Shown here in pieces: positions 4,678 to 29,839 of a stretch of DNA of 64,000 nt (the first letter of the stretch is position 1; the number at the start of each line of letters is the position of its first letter). The notes under the pieces are model-generated. The model saw only the letters and a program-made list of their open reading frames with translations, was not told where the DNA came from and ran no database searches. The translations under genes and the position numbers were made by a program. Source of the DNA: Kineococcus mangrovi (GTDB lineage: Bacteria; Actinomycetota; Actinomycetes; Actinomycetales; Kineococcaceae); the NCBI RefSeq assembly GCF_041320705.1, contig NZ_JBGGTQ010000003.1, positions 1-64,000 on the forward strand, written 5' to 3'.

Positions 4678-5340
4678 GCGGCGCATGACGCTGCGCGCGA
4701 GGCGGTTGCCCACGACCTGCCCCACCTGCACGATGACGACGATCGCCGCGACGGCGACGTAGATGATCCCGTAGTCGTAGCGCTGCTTGCCGTACGTGAT
4801 GGCGTAGTCGCCCAGCCCACCGCCGCCGACGAGACCGGCCTGCGCCGTCATGTCGACGATGCCGATGAAGATGAACGTGTAGCCCAGGATGAGCGGGCCG
4901 AGGCCCTCGGGGATGACGACGCCGACGAGGATCGACAGCCGCGAGGCCCCCACGGCGCGGGCCGCCTCGACGACGCCCGGGTCGACGTTCACCAGGCTCT
5001 GCTCGACGATGCGGGCCACCGCGAACGCCGCGGCCAACGAGATCGCGAACGTCACCGCCGTCGTGCCGATCGTCGTCCCGACGGCCGCGATCTGCAGCGG
5101 GGTGATCGCGGCGAGGAAGATGATGAACGGGATGGGGCGCACCAGGTTCACGACGAACCCGATGAGCCCGAAGACGAACCGGTTGCCGAACAGGTTGCCC
5201 GGCCGCGTCGCGTACAGCGCCGTCCCGAGGACGAGCCCGATGACGCCGGAGGCGACGAGCGAGACGACCGCCATGAACAGCGTCTGCCAGATCGCGGTCC
5301 TGAACACGCCGAGGGTGTCGACGAACCCGCTGAAGTCCAC
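4675..5340 (-). CDS. metI: Methionine ABC transporter permease MetI
   Basis: 221-residue inner-membrane permease with five to six hydrophobic segments. It shows the MetI signatures NLVRPIPFIIFLAAITPLQ and, in the coupling region, VEAARAVGASRLSILVGVVIPE followed by the second half of the EAA loop. GTG at 5340 lies two bases after the metN stop, so translation is almost certainly coupled. It is the last gene of metQ-metN-metI and forms the membrane channel for D/L-methionine import driven by MetN. Confidence 0.93.
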   Translation of the reverse strand: MDFSGFVDTLGVFRTAIWQTLFMAVVSLVASGVIGLVLGTALYATRPGNLFGNRFVFGLIGFVVNLVRPIPFIIFLAAITPLQIAAVGTTIGTTAVTFAISLAAAFAVARIVEQSLVNVDPGVVEAARAVGASRLSILVGVVIPEGLGPLILGYTFIFIGIVDMTAQAGLVGGGGLGDYAITYGKQRYDYGIIYVAVAAIVVIVQVGQVVGNRLARSVMRR

Positions 5341-5342
5341 GG

Positions 5343-6371
5343 TCAGACCTCCTCGACCACGTGGACCCCGGCGGACCGCAGCGCGGCCGAGGCCGCGTCG
5401 ACCGCATCGGGGGTACCGGTCAGTTCGTAGGTGAGGGAACCGGCCCGCCGCTCGCGGACCTCCGAGACCCCGCCGTACACCAGTTCGGCGGTGGTCCCGT
5501 GGTCCCGGAAGACGGCGTCGATCCGTTGCTGAAGTCCCGGTTCGTCGGTGATGCGGACGCTCACGAGCCGGCCGGGGTGGTGGGTGCGCAGGCGCGCCAG
5601 CGTGTCCGCCGACGGGCGGTCGTGCGTGGCGCTGCGCACGAAACGCTGCGCCGCAGGGGTCTTCGGGTCCGAGAAGACGTCGTAGACGTCCCCGACCTCG
5701 ACGACCCGGCCCTGTTCCATCACGACGACGCGGTCGGCGATCTGCCGCACGGCCTCCATCTCGTGGGTGATGACGACGATGGTGACGCCGAGTTCGGTGT
5801 TCACCCGGCGCAGCAGCGAGAGCACCTCGGTCGTCGTCTCGGGGTCCAGCGCGCTCGTCGCCTCGTCGCACAGCAGCAGCGGCGGGTTCGTCGCCAGCGC
5901 GCGGGCGATCCCGACGCGCTGCTTCTGCCCGCCCGACAACTGCTCGGGGTAGGCGTGGGCGCGGTCGAGCAACCCCACGAAGTCGAGGAGTTCGGCGGTG
6001 CGCCGGTCGCGCTCGTCCTTCGCGACCCCCGCGACCTTCAACGGGTAGCCGACGTTCCCGGCGACGGTCCGGGACCGGAACAGGTTGAACTGCTGGAAGA
6101 TCATCCCGATGCGGGACCGGGCCGCGCGCAGTTCCCCCTCGGACAACCTCGTGAGGTCCTGCCCGGCGACGCGGACGCTGCCCGACGTGGGTCTCTCCAG
6201 CGCGTTGATGAGCCGGACCAGGGTGGACTTGCCCGCTCCCGAGTACCCGATGACGGCGAGGACCTCGCCCTCGGCGACCTCGAGGGAGACGCCGTCGACC
6301 GCCGTGACGGTCTTGCCGCCACGACGGTCGAAGGTCTTGCTGACGTCCGTCAGCGAGATGAGCGCGCTCAC
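5343..6371 (-). CDS. metN: Methionine ABC transporter ATP-binding protein MetN
   Basis: 342 residues. ABC ATPase domain: Walker A GYSGAGKS, Q-loop FQQFNLF, signature LSGGQKQRVGIARAL, Walker B LLLCDEATSALD and switch ITHEM. The last ~80 residues form the NIL regulatory domain that binds methionine and gives trans-inhibition in MetN. The GTG start at 6371 overlaps the metQ stop as GTGA. Together with MetI and MetQ it makes a complete MUT-family methionine importer. Confidence 0.95.
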   Translation of the reverse strand: MSALISLTDVSKTFDRRGGKTVTAVDGVSLEVAEGEVLAVIGYSGAGKSTLVRLINALERPTSGSVRVAGQDLTRLSEGELRAARSRIGMIFQQFNLFRSRTVAGNVGYPLKVAGVAKDERDRRTAELLDFVGLLDRAHAYPEQLSGGQKQRVGIARALATNPPLLLCDEATSALDPETTTEVLSLLRRVNTELGVTIVVITHEMEAVRQIADRVVVMEQGRVVEVGDVYDVFSDPKTPAAQRFVRSATHDRPSADTLARLRTHHPGRLVSVRITDEPGLQQRIDAVFRDHGTTAELVYGGVSEVRERRAGSLTYELTGTPDAVDAASAALRSAGVHVVEEV

Positions 6372-7318
6372 TTGCCCTTGGCGGCCTTCGCGTCGGCCTC
6401 GACCTCGGTCAGTTCCGCCTGCAGGTCGGCGGCCGGGGTGTCCTCGACGATCGCGGTCGGGTTGTCCTGCAGGAACACCTCCTGCACGGCCGGGTCGTGC
6501 CACAGCTGGGCCAGCTGCAGGTACGTCTCGTTCGTGGCGTCGGCCTTGCGGGCCGTGAAGATGTTGACGTACGGCGCCGCGGCGGCCGACTTCGCGTCGT
6601 CCTGGACGATGATGTCGTCGGTCGGCAGCTTCGCGGCCGTGGCGTAGTTGTTGTTGACGATCGCGGCGGCGACCGAACCGCTCTGCAGCGCGCTCGCGGT
6701 CTGGTCCGCGGACACGGGGACGACCTCGACCTTGCCGGACTCGATGTCGTTCGTCGTGGAGAACGCCGTGCCGCCGTCCTTCAGCGTCACCAGACCGGCC
6801 TCCTGCAGCACGAGCAGGCCACGGGCCTCGTTGATGGCGTCGTTGGGGATCGCGACCTTCGCGTCGGCGGGCAGTTCCGAGGCGGACTTCGCGGTGAGGG
6901 AGTACAGCGGCAGCGGGTAGACGGCGGTGGCCCCGATGGGTTGCAGGTCGTCACCGGCCTCGACGTTGTAGTTCGCCAGGTACTGGATGTGCTGGAACTG
7001 GTTGAGATCCAGCTCGCCCTGCTCCAGCGCCGGGTTCGGCAGGGTGTAGTCGGAGAAGTTGACGAGCTCGACGTCGACGTTCAGCTTCGACTTCGCGAGC
7101 TCGGTGTAGGTGCTCCAGTACGGCAGCGACTTGTCCGCGACACCGATCGTGACGGTCTGCGCCTCACCGCCGCCGCTCGCCGCGGTGGTGGCGGTGTCGT
7201 CCCGGGTGCTCAGGACGACGGCGACGACCACGACGATCACGACGGCGATCGCGGCGATGACGCCGACGAGGAGGCCGCGGCGCTTGGGCTTGTCGGGCAG
7301 GACGGGGGCGTTGGACAC
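6368..7318 (-). CDS. metQ: Methionine ABC transporter substrate-binding protein MetQ
   Basis: 316-residue NlpA/MetQ-family binding protein. An N-terminal hydrophobic helix (about residues 16-36, rich in Ile/Val) serves as signal or anchor; no lipobox cysteine is present, so it looks membrane-anchored rather than a lipoprotein, unlike many MetQ proteins. The mature part begins with TVTIGVADKSLPYW and has the family segments LDLNQFQHIQYL and AVYPLPLYS. GTG at 7318 follows GGAG by 7 bases. First gene of metQNI, downstream of a SAM-IV riboswitch, so expression should fall when S-adenosylmethionine is plentiful. Confidence 0.93.
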   Translation of the reverse strand: MSNAPVLPDKPKRRGLLVGVIAAIAVVIVVVVAVVLSTRDDTATTAASGGGEAQTVTIGVADKSLPYWSTYTELAKSKLNVDVELVNFSDYTLPNPALEQGELDLNQFQHIQYLANYNVEAGDDLQPIGATAVYPLPLYSLTAKSASELPADAKVAIPNDAINEARGLLVLQEAGLVTLKDGGTAFSTTNDIESGKVEVVPVSADQTASALQSGSVAAAIVNNNYATAAKLPTDDIIVQDDAKSAAAAPYVNIFTARKADATNETYLQLAQLWHDPAVQEVFLQDNPTAIVEDTPAADLQAELTEVEADAKAAKGK

Positions 7319-7384
7319 GCGATCACTCCGGGAGTCGTTCGGCGGGCGCGCGGCTCGCAGCACTCCGTGATCGACGGCGTCCGT

Positions 7385-7496
7385 TGATCCGCGCTTGCCG
7401 GACGGGGTCGTCCGGCCAGGTCCTCACCTGGGGCACCCCACCGCGGAGGAGGGTTGCCGGACAGCGAGCCAGGGCTTGTCGCTGTCACTCATGACC
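7385..7496 (-). promoter_or_regulatory. SAM-IV riboswitch upstream of metQNI
   Basis: Reading the minus strand from 7496 there is GGTCATGAGTGACAGCGAC, AAGCCCTGGCTCGCTGTCC, GGCAACCCTCCTCCGCGG, then TGGGGTGCCCCAGGTGAGGA. This matches, from memory, the conserved core of the actinobacterial SAM-IV class (GUCAYGAG..., ...AAGCCCC, GGCAACCCUCC, GCGGUGGGGUGCCCC). A downstream CCGGACGACCCCGTCCGG hairpin could be the expression-platform or pseudoknot region. It lies 67 bases before the metQ start. Boundaries are approximate. SAM-IV elements generally repress sulfur-amino-acid genes when SAM binds. Confidence 0.9.
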
Positions 7497-20842: not shown

Positions 20843-21448
20843 TCAGACGACGGCGTCGCGCGTCACGTCGTAGAACGCCACCTCGGCCGCCTCGAACCGC
20901 TCCTCCAGTGCGTCCAGCCCGTGCTCCAGGAGGAACCGGCGTTCGCTCTCGTGGACGGGGACGGCCTGCAGCCAGTGCACGTCGACCCCCGGTTCCAGCC
21001 GGTACCGCGACAGCCGCGGGAAGTTCCCCGGCGCGGTGAGCAGCAGGTGCTCGGTCCGGCCGCCGAGCAGGTCGGCGACGATCCCGGGGAACACCGTCGA
21101 GGGCGACAACGGCCAGGGTTCCCCGAGCGCGGCGAAGGCCGAGGCCACGAGCAGGCCCGTGGCGAGGCGCTCCTCCACGTCCTCCAGCACGGTGACGAGC
21201 TCGACGCGCACGTCGACGCCGGACCCGGGACCGCCCACCAGGTTGGGGGAGCGGTGCATCGTCAGCGTGGACACCGAGGTGAACCCCGGCCCGGGGGCGT
21301 CGGCCGCCGTCAGCACGTCGAGGGACAGCGTCTCGTCGCGGTTGAGGAACTCCTCGATCTGCGGACGCCCGTCGGGCACGAGCTGCTCGCCCACGAACCG
21401 CGCCATCCGCACCTCCGCGTCGCTGGGGGGCGGCGCCGGGACGCTCAC
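20843..21448 (-). CDS. Suppressor-of-fused (SUFU) domain protein
   Basis: 201 residues. The central and C-terminal parts fit the bacterial SUFU domain: DVRVELVTV near the centre, then [21 protein letters not shown], and the late [21 protein letters not shown] with its W-L-Q-x-V-P-x-x-E-x-E signature. The family is often met as an immunity or accessory protein of unknown biochemistry. The GTG start at 21448 overlaps the cofG stop as GTGA, so it is co-translated with an F420-biosynthesis gene. No signal peptide. Confidence 0.8.
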
Positions 21449-22761
21449 GCGGCCCTGCCCACGGGCCGGGCGGACTCGCGCGCGAGCCCGGTCGCCGGGT
21501 CGGCCAGGGCCGCCACCGCGGCGTGCAGCTCCGGCGCGATCCACGTGTCGCTCCCCGCGAGGGCGTCGAGGACGAACCGCGGGTGGGCGGTCAGCCGCTC
21601 GGCCAGCCGGAACCCGGCGGCGCGGGTCGTCGCGGCCAGGTCGTCGAGCTGGGGCCACGGCCGTTCGGGGTTGACGTGGTCGGGGGTCAACGGGGACACC
21701 CCGCCCCAGTCATCGACGCCCGCGGCCAGGAGCTGCTCGCGCTGACCGGGTTCGGACAGGTTCGGCGGGGCCTGCAGCGACACGTCGGCACCCAGCAGCA
21801 GCCGCGCGACGGCGATCGTCGCGACGTACTCGGGGTGCTCCAGGTCGGCCTCCCCGCGCATCGCGGTGTCGTCCTTGGCGCGGAAGTTCTGCACGATGAC
21901 CTCCTGGATCCCCCCGGTCTCGCGGGCGACGTCGCGCAGGGCCAGCAGGGAGTCGACGCGTTCGGCGGACGTCTCGCCGATCCCGAGCAGCACGCCGCTG
22001 GTGAAGGGCACGCGCGCCCGGCCCGCGTCGCGCAGCACCCGCACCCGCAGCTCGGGGTCCTTGTCCGGGGAGCCGTAGTGGACCTGGCCGGGTTCGGCCC
22101 ACAACCGCCGCGACGTCGTCTCCAGCATCATCCCCATCGACGGGGCCAGCGGCCGGGACGCCGCGAGCGCCTCGTAGGACATGACGCCGGGGTTCAGGTG
22201 CGGCAGCAGACCCGTCTCGTCCAGGACCCGGCGGGCCAGGTGCTGCACGTACTCCAGGGTCGAGGAGAAACCCCGGTCGGCGAGCCACGCGCGGGCGGCC
22301 GGCCAGCGGTCCTCGGGGGCGTCGCCGAGGGTGAACAGGGCCTCCTTGCAGCCCATCGCCGCGCCCTCGCGGGCGATCGCGAGGACGTCCTCTTCGGACA
22401 GGTACAGCACGGGCAGGCGCCCCGGCACGGTGGCGAACGTGCAGTAGTGGCAGCGGTCCCGGCACAACCGGGTGATGGGCACGAAGACCTTGCGCGAGTA
22501 AGTGATCGTGCCGGGACGACCGGCGCGGCGCATGGCCTCGTCCCGCACGGGGCGCGCCAGGGCGCACAGCCGGTCGAGGTCGTCGCCGCGGGCGTGCAGC
22601 AGGACGCGGGCGTGCTCGCGCTCGGCGCCGGCCCCGTCCCAGCCGTCGGCGCCGCCGCGGGCCGCGGACTCCAGCGCCGCGGCGAGCTCCGCCGCGCTCG
22701 GGGCGGGTTCGGGCGGGGCGGCGTGCCGGGTGCGGGCGGGATCGGGCAGGGGGGTGCTCAC
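21445..22761 (-). CDS. cofG: FO synthase subunit CofG (7,8-didemethyl-8-hydroxy-5-deazariboflavin synthase)
   Basis: 438-residue radical SAM enzyme. The cluster motif [11 protein letters not shown] places cysteines at 100, 104 and 107 (CX3CX2C). Conserved FbiC N-half blocks follow: [54 protein letters not shown] and [21 protein letters not shown]. In most actinobacteria CofG is fused to CofH as FbiC (about 850 residues); here the protein ends after the CofG half ([15 protein letters not shown]). GTG at 22761 has GGAGAG 6 bases upstream. Followed by SUFU with overlap and preceded by cofC after 17 bases. Confidence 0.93.
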
Positions 22762-22778: not shown

Positions 22779-23444
22779 TCAGCAGCGGGGCCCGGCGCAG
22801 CCCGCCGGGAGGTCGAGCGCGGTGGGGGCCGGCACGTCGCGGGCCAGCGCCACCCGCGTGCGCGGGCCGACGCCCAGGGTCAGGGCCGAGCGCAGGTCCT
22901 CGACGGTGTCGACGTCGCGGCGCAGCGACGGCAGCGGGTCCGTCAGCGCCACCGCGCCGGCCTCGAGGTGGCGCCGGGCCGAGTCGGGTCCGAAGCGGTG
23001 CGGCACGTCGCCGTCGGGGTCGGTCAGCAGGACGCTGCCGGACCCGGCGGCGTCGGTGACCAGCGCCGGGCCGGGGACCGTCAGCGCCCGCGCGAGCGCG
23101 CGCCCCAGGTCCTCGACGCGCAGCGCGGGCAGGTCCCCCAGCAGGACGGCCGTCGGCCCGCGCTCCAGACTGGCCAGCCCGGCCGCCACGGCGACGGCGA
23201 GCCCCGGCCGGCCGGGGGAGACCGTCCCCACCCCCAGGCCCCGGACGGCGCGCAGCACCTCGGGGTCGTCGCTCACGCACACCAGGAGACCCACCCCGGG
23301 CGTGTCCCGGCACGCCGTCAGGCAGTCCAGGGCCATCGCCAGCGCCAGCTCCCGGCGCTGCCGGTGCGGCAGCGCCAGTCGCGTCTTCGCCTCGTCGCCG
23401 CCCTTGACGGGGACGAGGACCCGCCAGCCGCTCACGTGCGTCAC
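22779..23444 (-). CDS. cofC: 2-phospho-L-lactate / phosphoenolpyruvate guanylyltransferase CofC (FbiD)
   Basis: 221 residues. It makes the GDP-activated lactyl or PEP moiety later attached to FO in F420 synthesis. Motifs: [69 protein letters not shown] and [11 protein letters not shown], all as in the family. GTG at 23444 with GGAGAGG 8 bases upstream. First gene of a cofC-cofG-SUFU operon; divergent from moaE by 67 bases. Confidence 0.92.
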
Positions 23445-23511
23445 CGGGCGATCCTCTCCCACGGTCCGGACTTGCGGAACACCTGCCCCGACGGGCACCT
23501 ACCCTGTCGGC

Positions 23512-23964
23512 GTGCAGCCACTCGCCCGCCTGAGCGCACCCGCCCGCCGCGTCGCGCGGACGTCCGTGGGTCCCGAACCGCTCGACGTCGCCGAGCACGC
23601 CGCCCTCGTCGGGGACGCCGCGGCCGGGGCGGTCGTGACCTTCGGCGGGGTCGTGCGCGACCACGACCACGGCCGGTCGGTGCGCGAGCTGGAGTACGTG
23701 GGTCACCCCAGCGCCGCGGACGTGCTGCGCGAGGTCGTCGCCGAGGTCGTCGCCGGATGCGAGGTGGACGCGGTGGCCGTCGGTCACCGCGTCGGGCACC
23801 TGGCCGTCGGGGACGTCGCCTTCGCGGTCGCGGTCTCCGCGGCCCACCGCGCCGAGGCGTTCGCGGCGTGCGCGCGGCTCGTCGACGAGGTCAAGGACCG
23901 GCTGCCGGTGTGGAAGCACCAGCACTTCGCCGACGGCACCTCCGAGTGGGTCGCCTGCCCCTGA
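23512..23964 (+). CDS. moaE: Molybdopterin synthase catalytic subunit MoaE
   Basis: 150 residues. MoaE with MoaD converts cyclic pyranopterin monophosphate to molybdopterin. Family segments: [49 protein letters not shown], and the active-site [20 protein letters not shown] carrying the two conserved lysines. GTG start at 23512. The moaD and moaA partners are about 4.5 kb away at 28345-29751. It leads the plus-strand group with the CofH-like gene 16 bases downstream. Confidence 0.93.
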
Positions 23965-23980
23965 GGGTTAGCCTCGGGCG

Positions 23981-25009
23981 GTGCCAGCCCCGTCCGCCCT
24001 CCTCGCCGACGCCCTCGCCGCCGCGGCTCACGACCACCGCGCCCTGACCGACGAGCAGGCGGTGGTCCTCCTGGGCGCCGACGGCGACGACCTGGACCGC
24101 CTCGCCGCGCTCGCCGACGACGTGCGCCGCGCCCGGGTCGGGGACGCTGTGACGTTCGTCGTCAACCGCAACCTCGACGGCGAACGCGTCGGCGCCGACC
24201 TGCCCCACGTGCGTGAGCTCGTCGCCGAGGCGGTGGCGCTGGGGGCGACCGAGGTCTGCGTCCAGGGCCCCGTCCCGGACCGGGCCGGGCCGGAGGGCTC
24301 CCTCGCCCTCGTGCGCGCGGTCGCCGAGGGCGCCGGGGCGGCCGGGGTGCACCTGCACGCCTTCCGGGTCCCCGAGGTGCTGCGGGCCGCCGACCTGCGC
24401 GCGTCCACGCCCCGCGCGTTCCTCCGGGCCGCCCGCGACGCCGGGCTCGGGTCGGTGCCCGGCACCGCCGCCAAGGTCCTCGACGACGCCGTCCGCACCG
24501 AGCTCAACGGCGGGGTCCCCGACCTGCCGGTGTCGACCTGGGTGGACGTCCTGCGCACCGCCCACGAGACCGGGCTGACGTCGACGTCCACGCTCGTCCA
24601 CGGCGGCCCGGAGACGCCCGCGCAGCAGGTCGCGCACCTGCGGCTGCTGGCCGGGCTGGCCGCGAGCACGGGCGGCATCACGGAGTTCATCGCCATGCCC
24701 TCCCCGTCGCGGCCCCCGTCGGCCCGCGCGACCCGGGCGCTGCACGCGCTCGCCCGGCTGCTGCTGGACGGCAGCGTCGACCACGTCCAGGCCGCCTGGC
24801 CCAAGCACCCGGCCGGCCTCGTCGCGGACCTGCTGCGCGGGGGCGCGGACGACCTCGGCGGGCTGCTGCTGGACGGCGAGCTCGACCCGGGCGCGGGGCA
24901 GGAGGCCGGCACGACGCTGACCCGCGAGGACGCGCTGGCGCTCGCGGACCGGGTGGGCCGCCCGCTGCGGCAGCGCACCACCCGCTACGGCGAGCTCGCA
25001 CCCGCGTGA
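23981..25009 (+). CDS. CofH-like protein lacking the radical-SAM cysteine motif
   Basis: 342 residues that align by eye with CofH, the C-terminal half of FbiC: DDVRRARVGDAVTFVVNRN, then ATEVCVQG, VHLHAF, GLGSVPGTAAKVLDDAVR, ITEFIAMP, ALARLLLDGSVDHVQAAW and GGADDLGGLLLDG all have CofH counterparts. In CofH the VVNRN is followed at once by the 4Fe-4S motif (...CxxxCxxCAF) and about 20 more residues. Here residues 65-75 (LDGERVGADLP) bridge directly to the next helix, and the whole protein has one cysteine, C93. No other reading frame supplies the missing motif. It cannot bind the usual cluster, so CofH activity is not expected. GTG 16 bases after moaE; its stop overlaps the monooxygenase start. 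A true CofH must lie outside the window if F420 is made. Confidence 0.8.
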   Translation: MPAPSALLADALAAAAHDHRALTDEQAVVLLGADGDDLDRLAALADDVRRARVGDAVTFVVNRNLDGERVGADLPHVRELVAEAVALGATEVCVQGPVPDRAGPEGSLALVRAVAEGAGAAGVHLHAFRVPEVLRAADLRASTPRAFLRAARDAGLGSVPGTAAKVLDDAVRTELNGGVPDLPVSTWVDVLRTAHETGLTSTSTLVHGGPETPAQQVAHLRLLAGLAASTGGITEFIAMPSPSRPPSARATRALHALARLLLDGSVDHVQAAWPKHPAGLVADLLRGGADDLGGLLLDGELDPGAGQEAGTTLTREDALALADRVGRPLRQRTTRYGELAPA

Positions 25010-26472
25010 CGTCCGCGGCGGAGCCGGTCGGCGACCCCGTCCTCGACGTCGCGGTCGTCGGCGCCGGGTTCGCCGGTCTCGGGACGGCCATCCGGCTGGC
25101 GCGCCGGGGCCGGGAGAGCTTCGTCGTGCTCGAGCGGGCCGCCGACGTCGGCGGCACCTGGCGGGAGAACACCTACCCGGGCGTGGCGTGCGACGTGCCG
25201 TCGCACCTGTACTCGTTCTCCTTCGCCCCCGACCCGGGGTGGTCGCGCGTGTTCGCCCCCGGTGCGGAGGTGCAGCGGTACCTGCGCGAACGCTCCCGCG
25301 AGGTCGCCGACCGGATCCGCCTGGGGTGCGAGGTCCTGGCGGCGGTGTGGGACGCGGACGCGGCGCACTGGCGGTTGCGCACGTCGACCGGGCCCGTGCG
25401 CGCCCGCGTCCTCGTGCTGGCCGCCGGCCGGCTCACCGAACCCCGCGTCCCCGACGTGCCGGGGCTGGGGGAGTTCGGCGGGCCCGTCGTCCACACGGCC
25501 CGGTGGGACCACGACCTCGACCTCACCGGCCGCCGCGTCGGGGTGGTGGGCACGGGGGCCTCGGCCGTCCAGGTCGTGCCGCACCTCGCGGGCCGGGCCG
25601 CGCACGTGGAGGTGTTCCAGCGCAGCCCGGCCTGGATCGTCCCCCGCGGGGACCGGCCGTTCAGCCCCGCCGAGCGGGCGGGTTTCGCGCGGGCCCCGGA
25701 GACCGCGCGGGCGCTGCGGGAGGAGACGTTCGCCGACATGGAACGCGGGCTGGCCGCCCGCCGGCTCGACCCCGCCGCCCTGGAGGCGTTGCGCCGCAGG
25801 GCGTCGGACCACCTGCAGGCGCAGGTGCCGAACCCGGGGTTGCGCGCGGCGCTGACCCCGGACTACGAGATCGGCTGCAAGCGCGTCCTGCTGTCCGACG
25901 ACTTCTACCCCGCCCTCACCCGCCCCGACGTCCGGCTCGTGCCGTCGGCGGTGCGCTCGGCCGCGCCGGGGTCGGTGACGACGGCGGACGGGCGCCGGCA
26001 CGCGCTCGACGTGCTCGTGCTCGCCACGGGTTTCCACTCCACCGTCCAGCCGTACGCGGCCCGGGTCACGGGCCGGCAGGGGCAAACGCTGGCCCGGGCG
26101 TGGGGGGCCGGGATGGTCTCGCACGCCTCGACGGTGGTGCACGGGTTCCCGAACCTCTTCGTCCTCGACGGGCCGAACGCGAGCCTGGGGCACAACTCCG
26201 CGGTGCACGTCATCGAGAGCCAGATCGGGTACCTGCTCGGGGCGCTGGACCACCTCGCCGCGACGGCCCGCCCGCTGGAGGTGAGCCTGCCGGCGCAGCG
26301 GCGCTACACCGCGGAGGTCGACGCGATGGCCGCGGACTCGGTGTGGCTGCGCGGGGGGTGTTCGAGCTGGTACGTGGACTCCCGCAGCGGGCGCCTCACG
26401 CTGCTGTGGCCGGACACGGCGACGGAGTTCCGCCGGCGCAACGGGACGTTCCACCCCGCGCCCTTCTTGTAG
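25006..26472 (+). CDS. Flavin-containing monooxygenase (Baeyer-Villiger type)
   Basis: 488 residues. N-terminal FAD site VVGAGFAGLGTAIRLARRG, GGTWRENTYPGVACDVPSHLY, and the BVMO fingerprint FxGxxxHxxxW at residues 157-167 (F157, G159, H163, W167). A second Rossmann motif VGVVGTGASAVQVVPHLA binds NADPH. FQRSPAWIVPR and LATGFHST are family-typical. It converts ketones to esters or oxidises heteroatoms; the substrate is unknown. The GTG start overlaps the CofH-like stop as GTGA, a coupling with no obvious metabolic reason. Confidence 0.9.
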   Translation: MTSAAEPVGDPVLDVAVVGAGFAGLGTAIRLARRGRESFVVLERAADVGGTWRENTYPGVACDVPSHLYSFSFAPDPGWSRVFAPGAEVQRYLRERSREVADRIRLGCEVLAAVWDADAAHWRLRTSTGPVRARVLVLAAGRLTEPRVPDVPGLGEFGGPVVHTARWDHDLDLTGRRVGVVGTGASAVQVVPHLAGRAAHVEVFQRSPAWIVPRGDRPFSPAERAGFARAPETARALREETFADMERGLAARRLDPAALEALRRRASDHLQAQVPNPGLRAALTPDYEIGCKRVLLSDDFYPALTRPDVRLVPSAVRSAAPGSVTTADGRRHALDVLVLATGFHSTVQPYAARVTGRQGQTLARAWGAGMVSHASTVVHGFPNLFVLDGPNASLGHNSAVHVIESQIGYLLGALDHLAATARPLEVSLPAQRRYTAEVDAMAADSVWLRGGCSSWYVDSRSGRLTLLWPDTATEFRRRNGTFHPAPFL

Positions 26473-26498
26473 GACAAGAAACTCCACTTGTACGATGA
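26466..26498 (+). promoter_or_regulatory. Paired FadR-type GntR operators before the dehydratase gene
   Basis: TTGTAGGACAA at 26467-26477 (extended to CTTGTAGGACAAG) fits the FadR-subfamily operator TNGTNNNACNA. A second, weaker site TTGTACGATGA at 26488-26498 starts 21 bases later, two helical turns, and differs by one base. The first overlaps the stop of the monooxygenase. The regulator at 27665 is the likely ligand. Confidence 0.55.
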
Positions 26499-26532
26499 GT
26501 GGGTCCACCGTCGTCCCACCCCGGAGGTCCCG

Positions 26533-27657
26533 GTGCCCGACCGCATCCGGCACGTCGAGCTGTCCACGCTCAGGCTCCCGCTGGCGCAACCGATCAGCGA
26601 CGCCAAGGTCCTCACCGGCCGCCAGCGGCCCATGACCGAGGTCGTCGTCCTCGTCGCCGCGGTCCGCACGCAGGACGGTCACGAGGGCACGGGGTTCAGC
26701 TACTCCAAGCGCGCCGGCGGGCCCGCCCAGTACGCCCACGCGAAGGAGGTCGCCGCCGACCTGCTGGGGGAGGACCCCAGCGACGTCGCCAAGGTGACGA
26801 CGAAGCTCCTGTGGGCCGGGGCGTCCGTCGGCCGCAGCGGGGTGGCCACCCAGGCCATCGCCGCGCTCGACGTCGCGCTGCACGACCTCAAGGCCCGGCG
26901 CGCGGGGCTGCCGCTGTCCAAGCTGCTCGGGTCCCACCGCGACTCCGTCCGCACCTACAACACCTCCGGCGGGTTTCTGCACACCCCGCTGCCGGAGGTG
27001 CTCGAGCGCGCCGACGCCTCCCTGGCGGCCGGCATCGGCGGCATCAAGATCAAGGTGGGACAGCCGGACACCCGCGAGGACCTGCGCCGTGTGGCCGCCG
27101 TCCGCGAGCACCTCGGACCCGACGTGCCGCTCATGGTGGACGCCAACCAGCAGTGGGACCGGCGGACCGCGCTGCGCATGGGGCGGGCGCTGGAGGAGTT
27201 CGACCTCGTCTGGATCGAGGAACCCCTCGACGCCCACGACGCCGTCGGGCACGCCGACCTGGCCCGCGCCCTGGACACCCCCGTCGCGACGGGGGAGATG
27301 CTCGCGAGCGTCGCCGAGCACGTCCGGCTCCTCGAGCACCGTTCGGCCGACGTCCTGCAGCCCGACGCGCCCCGCATCGGCGGGATCACCCCGTTCCTGC
27401 GGCTGGCGACGCTCGCCGACCAGGCCGGTGTCGACCTCGCGCCGCACTTCGCCATGGAGATCCACCTGCACCTCGCGGCCACCTACCCGCGCGAGACGTG
27501 GGTGGAGCACTTCGAGTGGCTGGACCCGCTGTTCGAGGAGCGCCTGGAGACCGTCGGCGGGCGCATGGTCGTCCCGGACCGTCCCGGGCTGGGGTTCACG
27601 TTCAGCGAGCAGGCGCGCGCCTGGACGACCGAGCGCGTGGAGTTCGGCGTCCGGTGA
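26533..27657 (+). CDS. Enolase-superfamily dehydratase, L-talarate/galactarate dehydratase-like
   Basis: 374 residues of the mandelate racemase subgroup. Residues in place: Lys172/Lys174 in IKIK, metal ligands Asp203 (VDANQQW), Glu229 (WIEEPLDAHD) and Glu255 (ATGEM), and His305 (APHFAMEIHLHL). The spacings 29, 26, 26 and 50 equal those I recall for Salmonella talarate/galactarate dehydratase. It should abstract the C2 proton of an acid sugar and eliminate water with Mg2+. GTG at 26533 with GGAGG 5 bases upstream. Followed after 7 bases by its GntR regulator. Confidence 0.87.
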   Translation: MPDRIRHVELSTLRLPLAQPISDAKVLTGRQRPMTEVVVLVAAVRTQDGHEGTGFSYSKRAGGPAQYAHAKEVAADLLGEDPSDVAKVTTKLLWAGASVGRSGVATQAIAALDVALHDLKARRAGLPLSKLLGSHRDSVRTYNTSGGFLHTPLPEVLERADASLAAGIGGIKIKVGQPDTREDLRRVAAVREHLGPDVPLMVDANQQWDRRTALRMGRALEEFDLVWIEEPLDAHDAVGHADLARALDTPVATGEMLASVAEHVRLLEHRSADVLQPDAPRIGGITPFLRLATLADQAGVDLAPHFAMEIHLHLAATYPRETWVEHFEWLDPLFEERLETVGGRMVVPDRPGLGFTFSEQARAWTTERVEFGVR

Positions 27658-27664
27658 GGTCCGC

Positions 27665-28342
27665 GTGAGCGCGCGGACCACGCGCACGCAGTCGCTGGTG
27701 GACGCCCTGCGCGCGCGCATCGTCGAGGGCGATCTCGCCCCGGGCCGCGCCGTGCCCTCCGAGAACGAGCTGGTCGCCGAGTTCGGGGTCTCCCGCACCG
27801 TCGTGCGCGAGGCGATGTCCCGGCTGCAGGCCGCGGGCCTGGTCGAGACCCTGCGCGGTCGCGGGTCGTTCGTCCTGGCCCGGCCCAGCGGGGAGCCGTT
27901 CGGCGTCGACGTCGGCGGGCTGCGCTCGCTGGGCGAGCGGGTCGAGCTGCTGGAGTTCCGGGTGGCGGTGGAGACCGAGGCGGCGGCCCTGGCGGCGCTG
28001 CGCCGGGACGAGGAGGGGCTGGCCGCGCTGGGGCGGGCCGCCGACGCCTTCGCCCGGGTGGTCGACCGTCCCGCGGACGCCGTCGCGGCCGACTTCGCCT
28101 TCCACCTCGCCGTCGCCTCCGCCTCGGGGAACCGCTACCTGCGCGAACTGCTGGGCTCGCTCGGGGAACCGATGATCGCGATGCCCTCGGCGCGGTTGCG
28201 CGCCGGTGCGCCGCCGGCGGCGGACGTCGTCACCGAGCACGCGGCCGTGGTGCTGGCCGTGGGCCGCGGGGACGCCGAGACCGCCCGCGCGGCCATGCGC
28301 GTGCACCTCACCTCGACGATCGCGCGGCTCGCGGGACGCTGA
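27665..28342 (+). CDS. GntR family (FadR/FCD) transcriptional regulator
   Basis: 225 residues. Winged HTH: LRARIVEGDLAPGRAVPSE, then LVAEFGVSRTVVREAMSRLQ and GLVETLRGRGSFVL. FCD domain with ELLEFRVAVETEAAALAALR, DFAFHLAVASASGN and EHAAVVLAVGRGD, which include metal-ligand histidines. GTG at 27665, 7 bases after the dehydratase. It probably represses its own operon through the operator pair at 26467-26498 and responds to an acid sugar or a product. Confidence 0.9.
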   Translation: MSARTTRTQSLVDALRARIVEGDLAPGRAVPSENELVAEFGVSRTVVREAMSRLQAAGLVETLRGRGSFVLARPSGEPFGVDVGGLRSLGERVELLEFRVAVETEAAALAALRRDEEGLAALGRAADAFARVVDRPADAVAADFAFHLAVASASGNRYLRELLGSLGEPMIAMPSARLRAGAPPAADVVTEHAAVVLAVGRGDAETARAAMRVHLTSTIARLAGR

Positions 28343-28344
28343 GG

Positions 28345-28602
28345 TCAGCCGCCGGCGAAGGGCGGCAGGACGTCGAGGGTCGTCCCCGGTGCGAGCCGGT
28401 CCTCCGGGCGCGCGGCCACCCCCTCGACGAGGAAGCTGCTGGCGGCCAGGACGCGGGCCAGCGCCGGTCCCCGGGCGCCCAGGACCTGCACGAGGTCCCC
28501 GAGCGTCGCGCCGTCGGGCAGGGGGACCCGTTCCTCCTCCCGGCCCGCCGCGGCCGCTGCCCCCGCGAACCAGCGCACGTCCAGCGTGCCCGTCCCGTTC
28601 AC
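28345..28602 (-). CDS. moaD: MoaD/ThiS family sulfur carrier protein
   Basis: 85-residue ubiquitin-like protein ending in the PPFAGG diglycine tail that is adenylated and thiocarboxylated to donate sulfur in molybdopterin synthesis. LDVRWFAGAAAAAG, LPDGATLGDLVQVL and FLVEGVAARPEDRLAPGTTLDVLPP fit MoaD. GTG at 28602 is favoured by GGGAGG 10 bases upstream; a longer form from GTG 28629 is possible. It follows moaA on the same strand. Confidence 0.88.
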   Translation of the reverse strand: MNGTGTLDVRWFAGAAAAAGREEERVPLPDGATLGDLVQVLGARGPALARVLAASSFLVEGVAARPEDRLAPGTTLDVLPPFAGG

Positions 28603-28644
28603 CTGCCGTTCACCTCCCGTCGTGCTCACGCGTCGCCCACCGGT

Positions 28645-29751
28645 TCAGCCCCCGATCGCGCTCATCGGCCGGGTCGGGTGCAGGAACCCCGGGTCGTCGA
28701 TGTCGTGACCCGGCAGCTTGCCCCACATCGCCGTGCGCCAGCGGTCGGCGAGCGCCGCGTCGTCGGCGCCGGAGCGCAGGGCGTCGCGCAGGTCGGTCTC
28801 GGAGGTGGAGAACAGGCACGTGCGCACCTGGCCGTCGGCGGTCAGCCGGGTCCGGTCGCAGTCGCCGCAGAAGGGGCGGGTGACCGAGGCGATGACCCCC
28901 ACGTCCCCCAGGACCGTGCCGTCGCCGGCCACCACGTCCCACGTCTCGGCCGGCGCCGCCCCGCGGGCCGTCCCGGGGCGGGGGCGGAGGTGGAACTCCC
29001 GGTGCAGCGCGGCGAGGATCTCGTCGGCCGTCACCATCTGCGAGCGCTGCCACGAGCCGTGCGGGTCCAGCGGCATCTGCTCGATGAAGCGCAGCCGGTA
29101 CCCGGCGGCCAGGGCCCACCGCAGCAGGTCGGTCGCCTCGTCGTCGTTGGTGCCGCGCAGCAGGACGGCGTTGACCTTGACCGGGGCCAGGCCCGCGGCG
29201 GCGGCCGCTTCGAGGCCGGCGAGGACGTCGGTGTGCCGGTCCCGGCGGGTGATGGCGGCGAAGCGGTCCGGGTGCAGGGTGTCGAGGGAGACGTTGACCC
29301 GCGTCAGCCCGGCGCCGGCCAGTGCCGCGGCCCGCCGGGCCAGGCCGATCCCGTTCGTCGTCAGGGAGGCGCGGACGGGATCGCCGGCGGGTGTCCGCAA
29401 CCTGGTCGTCGCTGCGACGATGTCTTCGAGCCCCTTGCGCAGCAGCGGTTCACCGCCGGTGAAGCGCACCTCGTGGACGCCCAGGTCGCGCACGGCGAGC
29501 CGGACCAGCCGGACGACCTCGTCGTCGGTGAGGACGTCGGCGCGGTCCAGCCAGGGCAGGCCCTCCGGTGGCATGCAGTAGTGGCAGCGCAGGTTGCAGC
29601 GGTCGGTGAGGGAGACCCGCAGGTCGCGGGCCGTGCGGCCGTGCCGGTCGACGAGGTCGGGGGTGGCCGGGCGGTCGCCGGGAAGGCCGGCGGCAGCGCC
29701 GGCGGGACCGGGTCGCCGCAGCCGGGGGACACCGAGGTCGACAGCCGTCAC
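28645..29751 (-). CDS. moaA: GTP 3',8-cyclase MoaA
   Basis: 368-residue radical SAM enzyme of the first molybdenum-cofactor step. N-terminal cluster cysteines 52, 56 and 59 in TDRCNLRCHYCMP; FTGGEPLLRKG and LTTNG follow. The second cluster is in FCGDCDRTRLTADGQVRTCLF, and the protein ends with the GG of PMSAIGG needed by MoaA. GTG at 29751 has no ribosome site, so it may be leaderless or start at a further upstream codon (29817). moaD follows after 42 bases. Confidence 0.95.
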   Translation of the reverse strand: MTAVDLGVPRLRRPGPAGAAAGLPGDRPATPDLVDRHGRTARDLRVSLTDRCNLRCHYCMPPEGLPWLDRADVLTDDEVVRLVRLAVRDLGVHEVRFTGGEPLLRKGLEDIVAATTRLRTPAGDPVRASLTTNGIGLARRAAALAGAGLTRVNVSLDTLHPDRFAAITRRDRHTDVLAGLEAAAAAGLAPVKVNAVLLRGTNDDEATDLLRWALAAGYRLRFIEQMPLDPHGSWQRSQMVTADEILAALHREFHLRPRPGTARGAAPAETWDVVAGDGTVLGDVGVIASVTRPFCGDCDRTRLTADGQVRTCLFSTSETDLRDALRSGADDAALADRWRTAMWGKLPGHDIDDPGFLHPTRPMSAIGG

Positions 29752-29839
29752 GCACCCAGCGTAGGTCGGGTGCGGGGCGCGGTCCGCGCGGGCGGGGGGG
29801 CGTGTGTCCTCGGTCACGTCGCCTCAAGCGCGTCAGGAG

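Follow-up and report, generated by a model that had tools for sequence, protein, structure and literature searches.

A cluster-less CofH homologue and its Baeyer-Villiger-like neighbor in Kineococcus mangrovi: a candidate oxygen-dependent substitute for radical CofH

How might a bacterium assemble 7,8-didemethyl-8-hydroxy-5-deazariboflavin (FO), on the way to the cofactor F420, with a CofH that has no iron-sulfur cluster motif? The question is raised by a gene of Kineococcus mangrovi that lies in a stretch of 64,000 nucleotides, here called the window (RefSeq assembly GCF_041320705.1, contig NZ_JBGGTQ010000003.1, positions 1 to 64,000 of the forward strand). Radical CofH cleaves tyrosine between Cα and Cβ and transfers the 4-hydroxybenzyl group to 5-amino-6-ribitylaminouracil, and according to a review FO is made by a universal mechanism with two S-adenosylmethionine (SAM)-radical domains in all studied organisms (PMC8498797). 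The window encodes a CofH homologue without the CX3CX2C motif, followed by a monooxygenase gene. We found this pair at every clade locus examined, and we consider it likely that the two proteins form a module that replaces radical-SAM CofH in FO/F420 synthesis. A literature search, in a library with few subscription journals or preprints, turned up neither a cluster-less CofH nor a part for any Baeyer-Villiger enzyme in making F420. The features needed first are as follows.

23981 to 25009, forward strand: cluster-less CofH homologue, 342 residues, GTG start, predicted SAM- and cluster-free TIM barrel.
24164 to 24205, forward strand: excision point from alignments, a short loop (residues 65-75) directly after NRN (62-64) that replaces the CX3CX2C loop.
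25006 to 26472, forward strand: monooxygenase, type I Baeyer-Villiger-like, flavin adenine dinucleotide (FAD)/NADPH, 488 residues; its start codon and the stop codon of CofH share the letters GTGA.

Loss of the cluster loop in a CofH clade

The protein matched the NCBIfam CofH family TIGR03551 over its length (222.7 bits, E 5.6e-66) in two stretches flanking the cluster region, below the curated cut-off of 374.1, and matched CofGH PRK09234 with 266.8 bits. Aligned with intact CofH, it skipped ~19-20 residues after NRN (N62-R63-N64); the skipped segment of CofH carries the three cluster cysteines, two invariant asparagines and conserved phenylalanines. The family match and the alignment confirmed an earlier, sequence-only reading of the window, which had seen CofH similarity on both sides of the cluster site with residues 65-75 bridging it. 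That reading had also correctly noted a single cysteine (C93, within GATEVCVQG), the 16 bases between the moaE stop and the CofH start, and the GTGA overlap with the monooxygenase.

We sought relatives among 84,980 species genomes and found close ones in Actinoplanes lutulentus, Actinomycetospora, Humibacter, Amnibacterium, Agromyces, Cryobacterium, Arthrobacter, Oerskovia and many Microbacterium. Their CofH part lacked CX3CX2C throughout, and in most of them it was part of a fusion with a CofG whose own motif was normal. The motif was missing from the window protein and from all 49 aligned clade members, and was invariant in 50 intact CofH sequences. In a tree computed with the loop columns removed, the 49 cluster-less sequences formed one branch apart from the 50 intact ones (Shimodaira-Hasegawa-like approximate likelihood ratio test, SH-aLRT, 100), a loop loss of single origin, and the search for further members with the same deletion, which the sequence-only reading had recommended, ended in a whole clade. 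All 11 genomes available for the genus shared the excision, as did over 40 further loci, which ruled out a frameshift or a sequencing error. A decaying pseudogene, which the earlier reading had already denied, was ruled out by the clade-wide deletion together with the ratio of nonsynonymous to synonymous substitution rates (dN/dS), which was ~0.33 within the genus, indicating purifying selection (0.09 for CofG). The loop, whose length varied, was also checked for substitute cysteines and for other metal motifs; none was conserved.

The changes extended beyond the loop. Positions R130, K/R166 and G300 are given here in alignment numbering, which is one above the count from the GTG start. All or nearly all clade members had lost the three cysteines, the two asparagines and the loop phenylalanines. 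The second Gly of QGG and the β4 Glu (GTAAEIL) were each kept in 0% of the clade, with Lys/Arg166 in 47 of 49 members, while a Ser had become Arg130 and a Glu had become Gly300 in 49 of 49. The assignment of the QGG Gly and the β4 Glu to the SAM site follows family conservation, including MqnE. Fifty-one columns were kept in both cluster-less and intact CofH, among them NRN, GATE-C-Q, H-x-H and PGT. An AlphaFold model showed a complete TIM barrel of the MqnE/CofH type (predicted local distance difference test score 93.5, predicted template modeling score 0.91), and its nearest solved fold was MqnE (6xi9; Z 33.6, root-mean-square deviation 2.6 over 318 residues). A structure model had been proposed in the sequence-only reading, and it returned a CofH-type barrel. 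Judged from sequence and model, the SAM/cluster site appears dismantled while the barrel is predicted to stay intact, in line with the earlier view of a repurposed CofH without a radical-SAM site, now seen to be conserved across the clade.

Compared with CofH or the C-terminal half of FbiC (FO synthase; TIGR03551), the cluster-less proteins are homologous outside the loop, share the barrel and often the CofG fusion, and keep the same genomic company (CofG and CofC); they differ in having no CX3CX2C, no cluster Asn or Phe, replaced SAM-site residues and an obligate monooxygenase partner. MqnE, HydE, ThiH, NosL and BioB, radical-SAM aromatic lyases or BioB-like barrels of which MqnE is the closest solved fold, require SAM and a [4Fe-4S] cluster, whereas the cluster-less CofH has neither site by sequence.

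Some records need separate mention. The sole other cluster-less sequence in the CofH tree came from a lone Methylomirabilota metagenome-assembled genome (L048, 8001-8978, equal to L102, 238-1443) and had its own in-frame deletion, independent of the clade's, with NFTNVC followed almost directly by ITLEEI. It retained the SAM-site residues, and no Baeyer-Villiger monooxygenase (BVMO) was seen beside it, though the contig ends soon after; its loop loss looks like recent decay or an assembly artefact. Of the L060/L036 pair of records, 'Planococcus sp. APC 4015' carried a Microbacterium-type CofG-CofH fusion of the cluster-less form plus a BVMO, and a 2.9 Mb 'Acidobacteria' metagenome-assembled genome branched beside the Microbacterium group; both are probably mislabeled or contaminated. 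A highly diverged CofG-CofH fusion on a long branch (L155, genome G053, 5026-7458) had the odd cluster motif CTFKCRFC.

The linked monooxygenase

A comparison of neighborhood genes, filtered by GC frame, first revealed the monooxygenase as a common neighbor. At 51 of 51 loci it stood beside the cluster-less CofH in the same orientation, mostly with an overlap or within a few tens of bases, against 0 of 89 loci with an intact CofH. A later survey found it at 6 of 6 new cluster-less loci and at 0 of 3 new intact ones, which brings the pairing to 57 of 57 clade loci examined. Among 396 Actinomycetales genomes, BVMO matches of at least 54% identity occurred in exactly the 29 cluster-less genomes; the next match, at 53%, was in a genome without CofH. 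As this margin is thin, adjacency is the real discriminator. In Arthrobacter sp. MYb23 (L016, 9756-11598) the BVMO was split over two overlapping frames, apparently by a frameshift or sequencing error.

The nearest solved proteins by sequence were steroid monooxygenase and phenylacetone monooxygenase (PAMO), and the best 48 of 50 structural matches to the monooxygenase model were BVMOs (Z 34-39). The fingerprint FxGxxxHxxxW[P/D] read FGGPVVHTARWD in the window protein, and 42 of the 51 linked homologues matched it strictly; [A/G]GxWxxxx[F/Y]P[G/M]xxxD read GGTWRENTYPGVACD, with a match in 50 of the 51. D63 and R293 aligned with the active-site D66 and R337 of PAMO and were invariant in 34 homologues. 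By fold, fingerprints and catalytic Arg, the monooxygenase is thus a predicted type I BVMO. It resembles PAMO and steroid monooxygenase in fold (Z 36-39), in both fingerprints and in the catalytic Asp and Arg; it differs from them in its sequence (~31-33% identity), its shorter length and its genetic tie to a cofactor-biosynthesis protein. PAMO oxidizes a benzyl ketone to a benzyl ester, converting phenylacetone to benzyl acetate (PMC3404926).

We observed an α/β hydrolase gene between the cluster-less CofH and the BVMO in four diverged loci. Homologous hydrolases stood beside three sister BVMOs in genomes without CofH (L156, L157 and L158), two of which also had TetR-type regulators and alcohol-dehydrogenase-like genes; all three are probable catabolic ketone clusters. 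Since a BVMO and a hydrolase are the expected set for a ketone-to-ester reaction, the CofH-linked BVMO probably came from such a pair.

The sequence-only reading had offered several roles for the odd CofH. Its proposal of the adjacent monooxygenase as a partner was borne out by the linkage, but a deazaflavin-binding helper of an otherwise unrelated monooxygenase found no support, nor did a regulator. A substrate-binding role within FO synthase fits the data, as does a condensing role.

CofG partners and the retained F420 pathway

The rest of the pathway begins beside the pair, with two genes on the opposite strand.

21445 to 22761, reverse strand: CofG, radical SAM enzyme with intact motif CRDRCHYC, adjoining cofC and upstream of the cluster-less CofH.
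22779 to 23498, reverse strand: CofC/FbiD guanylyltransferase of F420 tail assembly (Pfam CofC, 32.6 bits).

CofD and CofE scored over cut-off on another contig of the same genome, which also has two F420H2-dependent quinone-reductase homologues. A second CofH with intact cysteines, which the sequence-only reading had suggested looking for, was absent from the whole source genome (99.9% complete), and no intact CofH was found among 31 cluster-less clade genomes. A full-length second match in Actinoplanes lutulentus proved to be MqnC, encoded next to a methyltransferase of the UbiE type, and a further, weak match was BioB. CofD was present in 30 of the 31 genomes and CofE likewise in 30 of 31, counts from which the Methylomirabilota genome was left out. 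Across the 396-genome survey, 32 genomes had an intact CofH, 29 a cluster-less one (11 of them from the window's own genus) and 0 had both, a mutually exclusive distribution.

The CofGs that accompany cluster-less CofH occupied four separate positions in the CofG tree, close to the intact FbiC of their own relatives. The window CofG was 71% identical to the CofG half of an intact FbiC from the same family and ~60% identical to CofGs that are fused to a cluster-less CofH. The CofH-linked BVMOs formed one clade (support 97), and evolutionary distances correlated at 0.93 between cluster-less CofH and BVMO versus 0.82 between cluster-less CofH and CofG. In Actinoplanes lutulentus (L007) the CofH-BVMO pair and cofG lay on different contigs. 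Because the partner CofGs belong to four lineages, we infer that cluster-less CofH and BVMO were transferred as a unit and took the place of the radical CofH. What had been read as a single odd gene would accordingly be a clade-wide, horizontally mobile CofH replacement.

CofG itself kept 125 of 168 invariant columns across all four lineages, and none had changed to a common new residue, suggesting that CofG still receives its usual substrate. The same lack of a common change led us to reject a CofG altered to do both reactions. It bears, too, on the idea of a cluster-less CofH that catalyzes nothing and acts as a scaffold or substrate-binding subunit, with both radical steps done by CofG and a separate role for the BVMO. 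Most cluster-less CofHs are fused to an intact CofG and are under weaker constraint than CofG, as this idea would have it; however, the four CofG lineages, close to the CofGs of intact-FbiC relatives, share no change, and the BVMO linkage is without exception and tighter than that of CofG, even where CofG lies elsewhere, as in Actinoplanes. We regard a scaffold as improbable.

Strong selection on CofG also counts against the possibility that FO is no longer made but scavenged, with the CofH-BVMO pair serving another pathway such as aromatic ketone degradation. FO reportedly crosses membranes by diffusion (PMC8498797), and BVMO relatives do occur in clusters without CofH. Yet CofG, which is useful only for FO, is strongly selected (by its dN/dS and its invariant columns) and usually fused to the cluster-less CofH, which itself was never without a BVMO among the genomes examined. 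Scavenging seems to us very improbable, and a CofH replacement within a retained FO pathway is the reading we carry forward.

CofG positions 394 and 398 (alignment numbering; window 21445-22761) were at least 96% conserved in the CofG halves of intact FbiC and lost, to differing residues, in all four lineages that pair with cluster-less CofH; they possibly mark a domain contact of FbiC. Nearby, molybdenum-cofactor genes (moaE, a ThiS/MoaD-like gene and moaA) are interspersed among the FO genes (23512-29817), and a Suppressor-of-fused (SUFU) domain protein gene adjoins cofG (20843-21658, reverse strand).

Candidate chemistry of the module

We reasoned that the BVMO probably performs the tyrosine Cα-Cβ cleavage once done by a radical, with oxygen chemistry in place of the 5'-deoxyadenosyl radical. 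In the scheme that we put forward tentatively, and with slightly less than even confidence, the BVMO would cut a tyrosine-derived ketone between Cα and Cβ, SAM-free CofH would couple a 4-hydroxybenzyl electrophile to 5-amino-6-ribitylaminouracil, and only CofG would still be a radical enzyme. With NADPH and O2, the BVMO would insert oxygen between Cβ and the carbonyl carbon (Cα). Its simplest substrate would be 4-hydroxyphenylpyruvate, and the product a 4-hydroxybenzyl ester, like the benzyl acetate of PAMO. This ester, alone or via a hydrolase, would lose its carboxylate to give a p-quinone methide or a 4-hydroxybenzyl equivalent. Formation of a quinone methide from a 4-hydroxybenzyl ester, and its attack by the uracil C5, belong to general chemical knowledge. 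The CofH barrel, with the conserved core of the CofH pocket kept, would hold 5-amino-6-ribitylaminouracil and guide addition of the electrophile at C5, yielding the product of the radical CofH without further redox chemistry, from which CofG would close the ring to FO. Before tyrosine was shown to be the substrate, 4-hydroxyphenylpyruvate was believed to be required for FO (PMC12855090).

The same module could reach the same outcome by another order of steps. CofH would begin by joining 5-amino-6-ribitylaminouracil to 4-hydroxyphenylpyruvate or 4-hydroxyphenylacetaldehyde, and the BVMO would afterwards oxidize the bound adduct, by a Baeyer-Villiger reaction or N-oxidation. A shared intermediate fits two genes that are always linked and were transferred together, and R130 and K/R166, positive residues newly gained in the barrel, could bind a carboxylate, for example that of 4-hydroxyphenylpyruvate. 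However, PAMO-like BVMOs use small free ketones, the clusters around the sister BVMOs look catabolic and include a hydrolase, and we saw no sign that this BVMO accepts a bulky nucleoside-like substrate; we judge this order unlikely. The module might instead make a different deazaflavin with another aryl part, later processed by normal tail enzymes. Substrate switches are known in F420 assembly, as for 3PG-F420 (PMC8498797), and the substrate of the BVMO is itself a deduction. Against this stand the canonical CofG, CofD and CofE, the F420H2-dependent reductase homologues of the genome, and the para-hydroxyl that quinone-methide formation requires, which is the 8-OH of FO. Such a product is the least probable of the alternatives.

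Several points weigh against an oxygen-dependent CofH substitute. The putative substrate of the BVMO is deduced from fold, fingerprints and neighbors only, and class B flavoproteins also N-hydroxylate. No hydrolase adjoins most clade members. Cluster-less CofH evolves faster than CofG (dN/dS 0.33 versus 0.09), as would also suit a non-catalytic scaffold. On the CofH tree the CofH-BVMO association arose once, and its independence comes from the four CofG lineages. In the literature searched, no measurement of FO or F420 in a species with cluster-less CofH came to light. On balance, with strong genetics behind the module, we still favor, with modest confidence, the explanation as a whole: an O2-dependent substitute for CofH made of the cluster-less barrel and the BVMO.

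Aerobes have O2-dependent stand-ins for other O2-sensitive radical-SAM enzymes, HemF/CgoX for HemN and AcsF for BchE. Unlike in those cases, the old radical-SAM barrel would here be kept without its cluster and teamed with a new oxygenase. Since FO synthase is reported to be O2-sensitive (PMC11917521), a route to FO that uses O2 would suit strict aerobes.

The cluster-less form is about as common as classical FbiC among the surveyed Actinomycetales genomes, and in nearly half of those that bear a CofH one SAM-radical domain is gone and an oxygenase is present. If our explanation is true, it would mean a new biosynthetic route into a central redox cofactor and a further takeover of a radical-SAM step by an O2-using enzyme, as in heme and chlorophyll synthesis, and it may open F420 production in aerobic hosts. 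Annotation of the cluster-less proteins as FbiC/CofH would then assign the wrong chemistry to what would be a radical-SAM barrel retained in use after the loss of its cluster.
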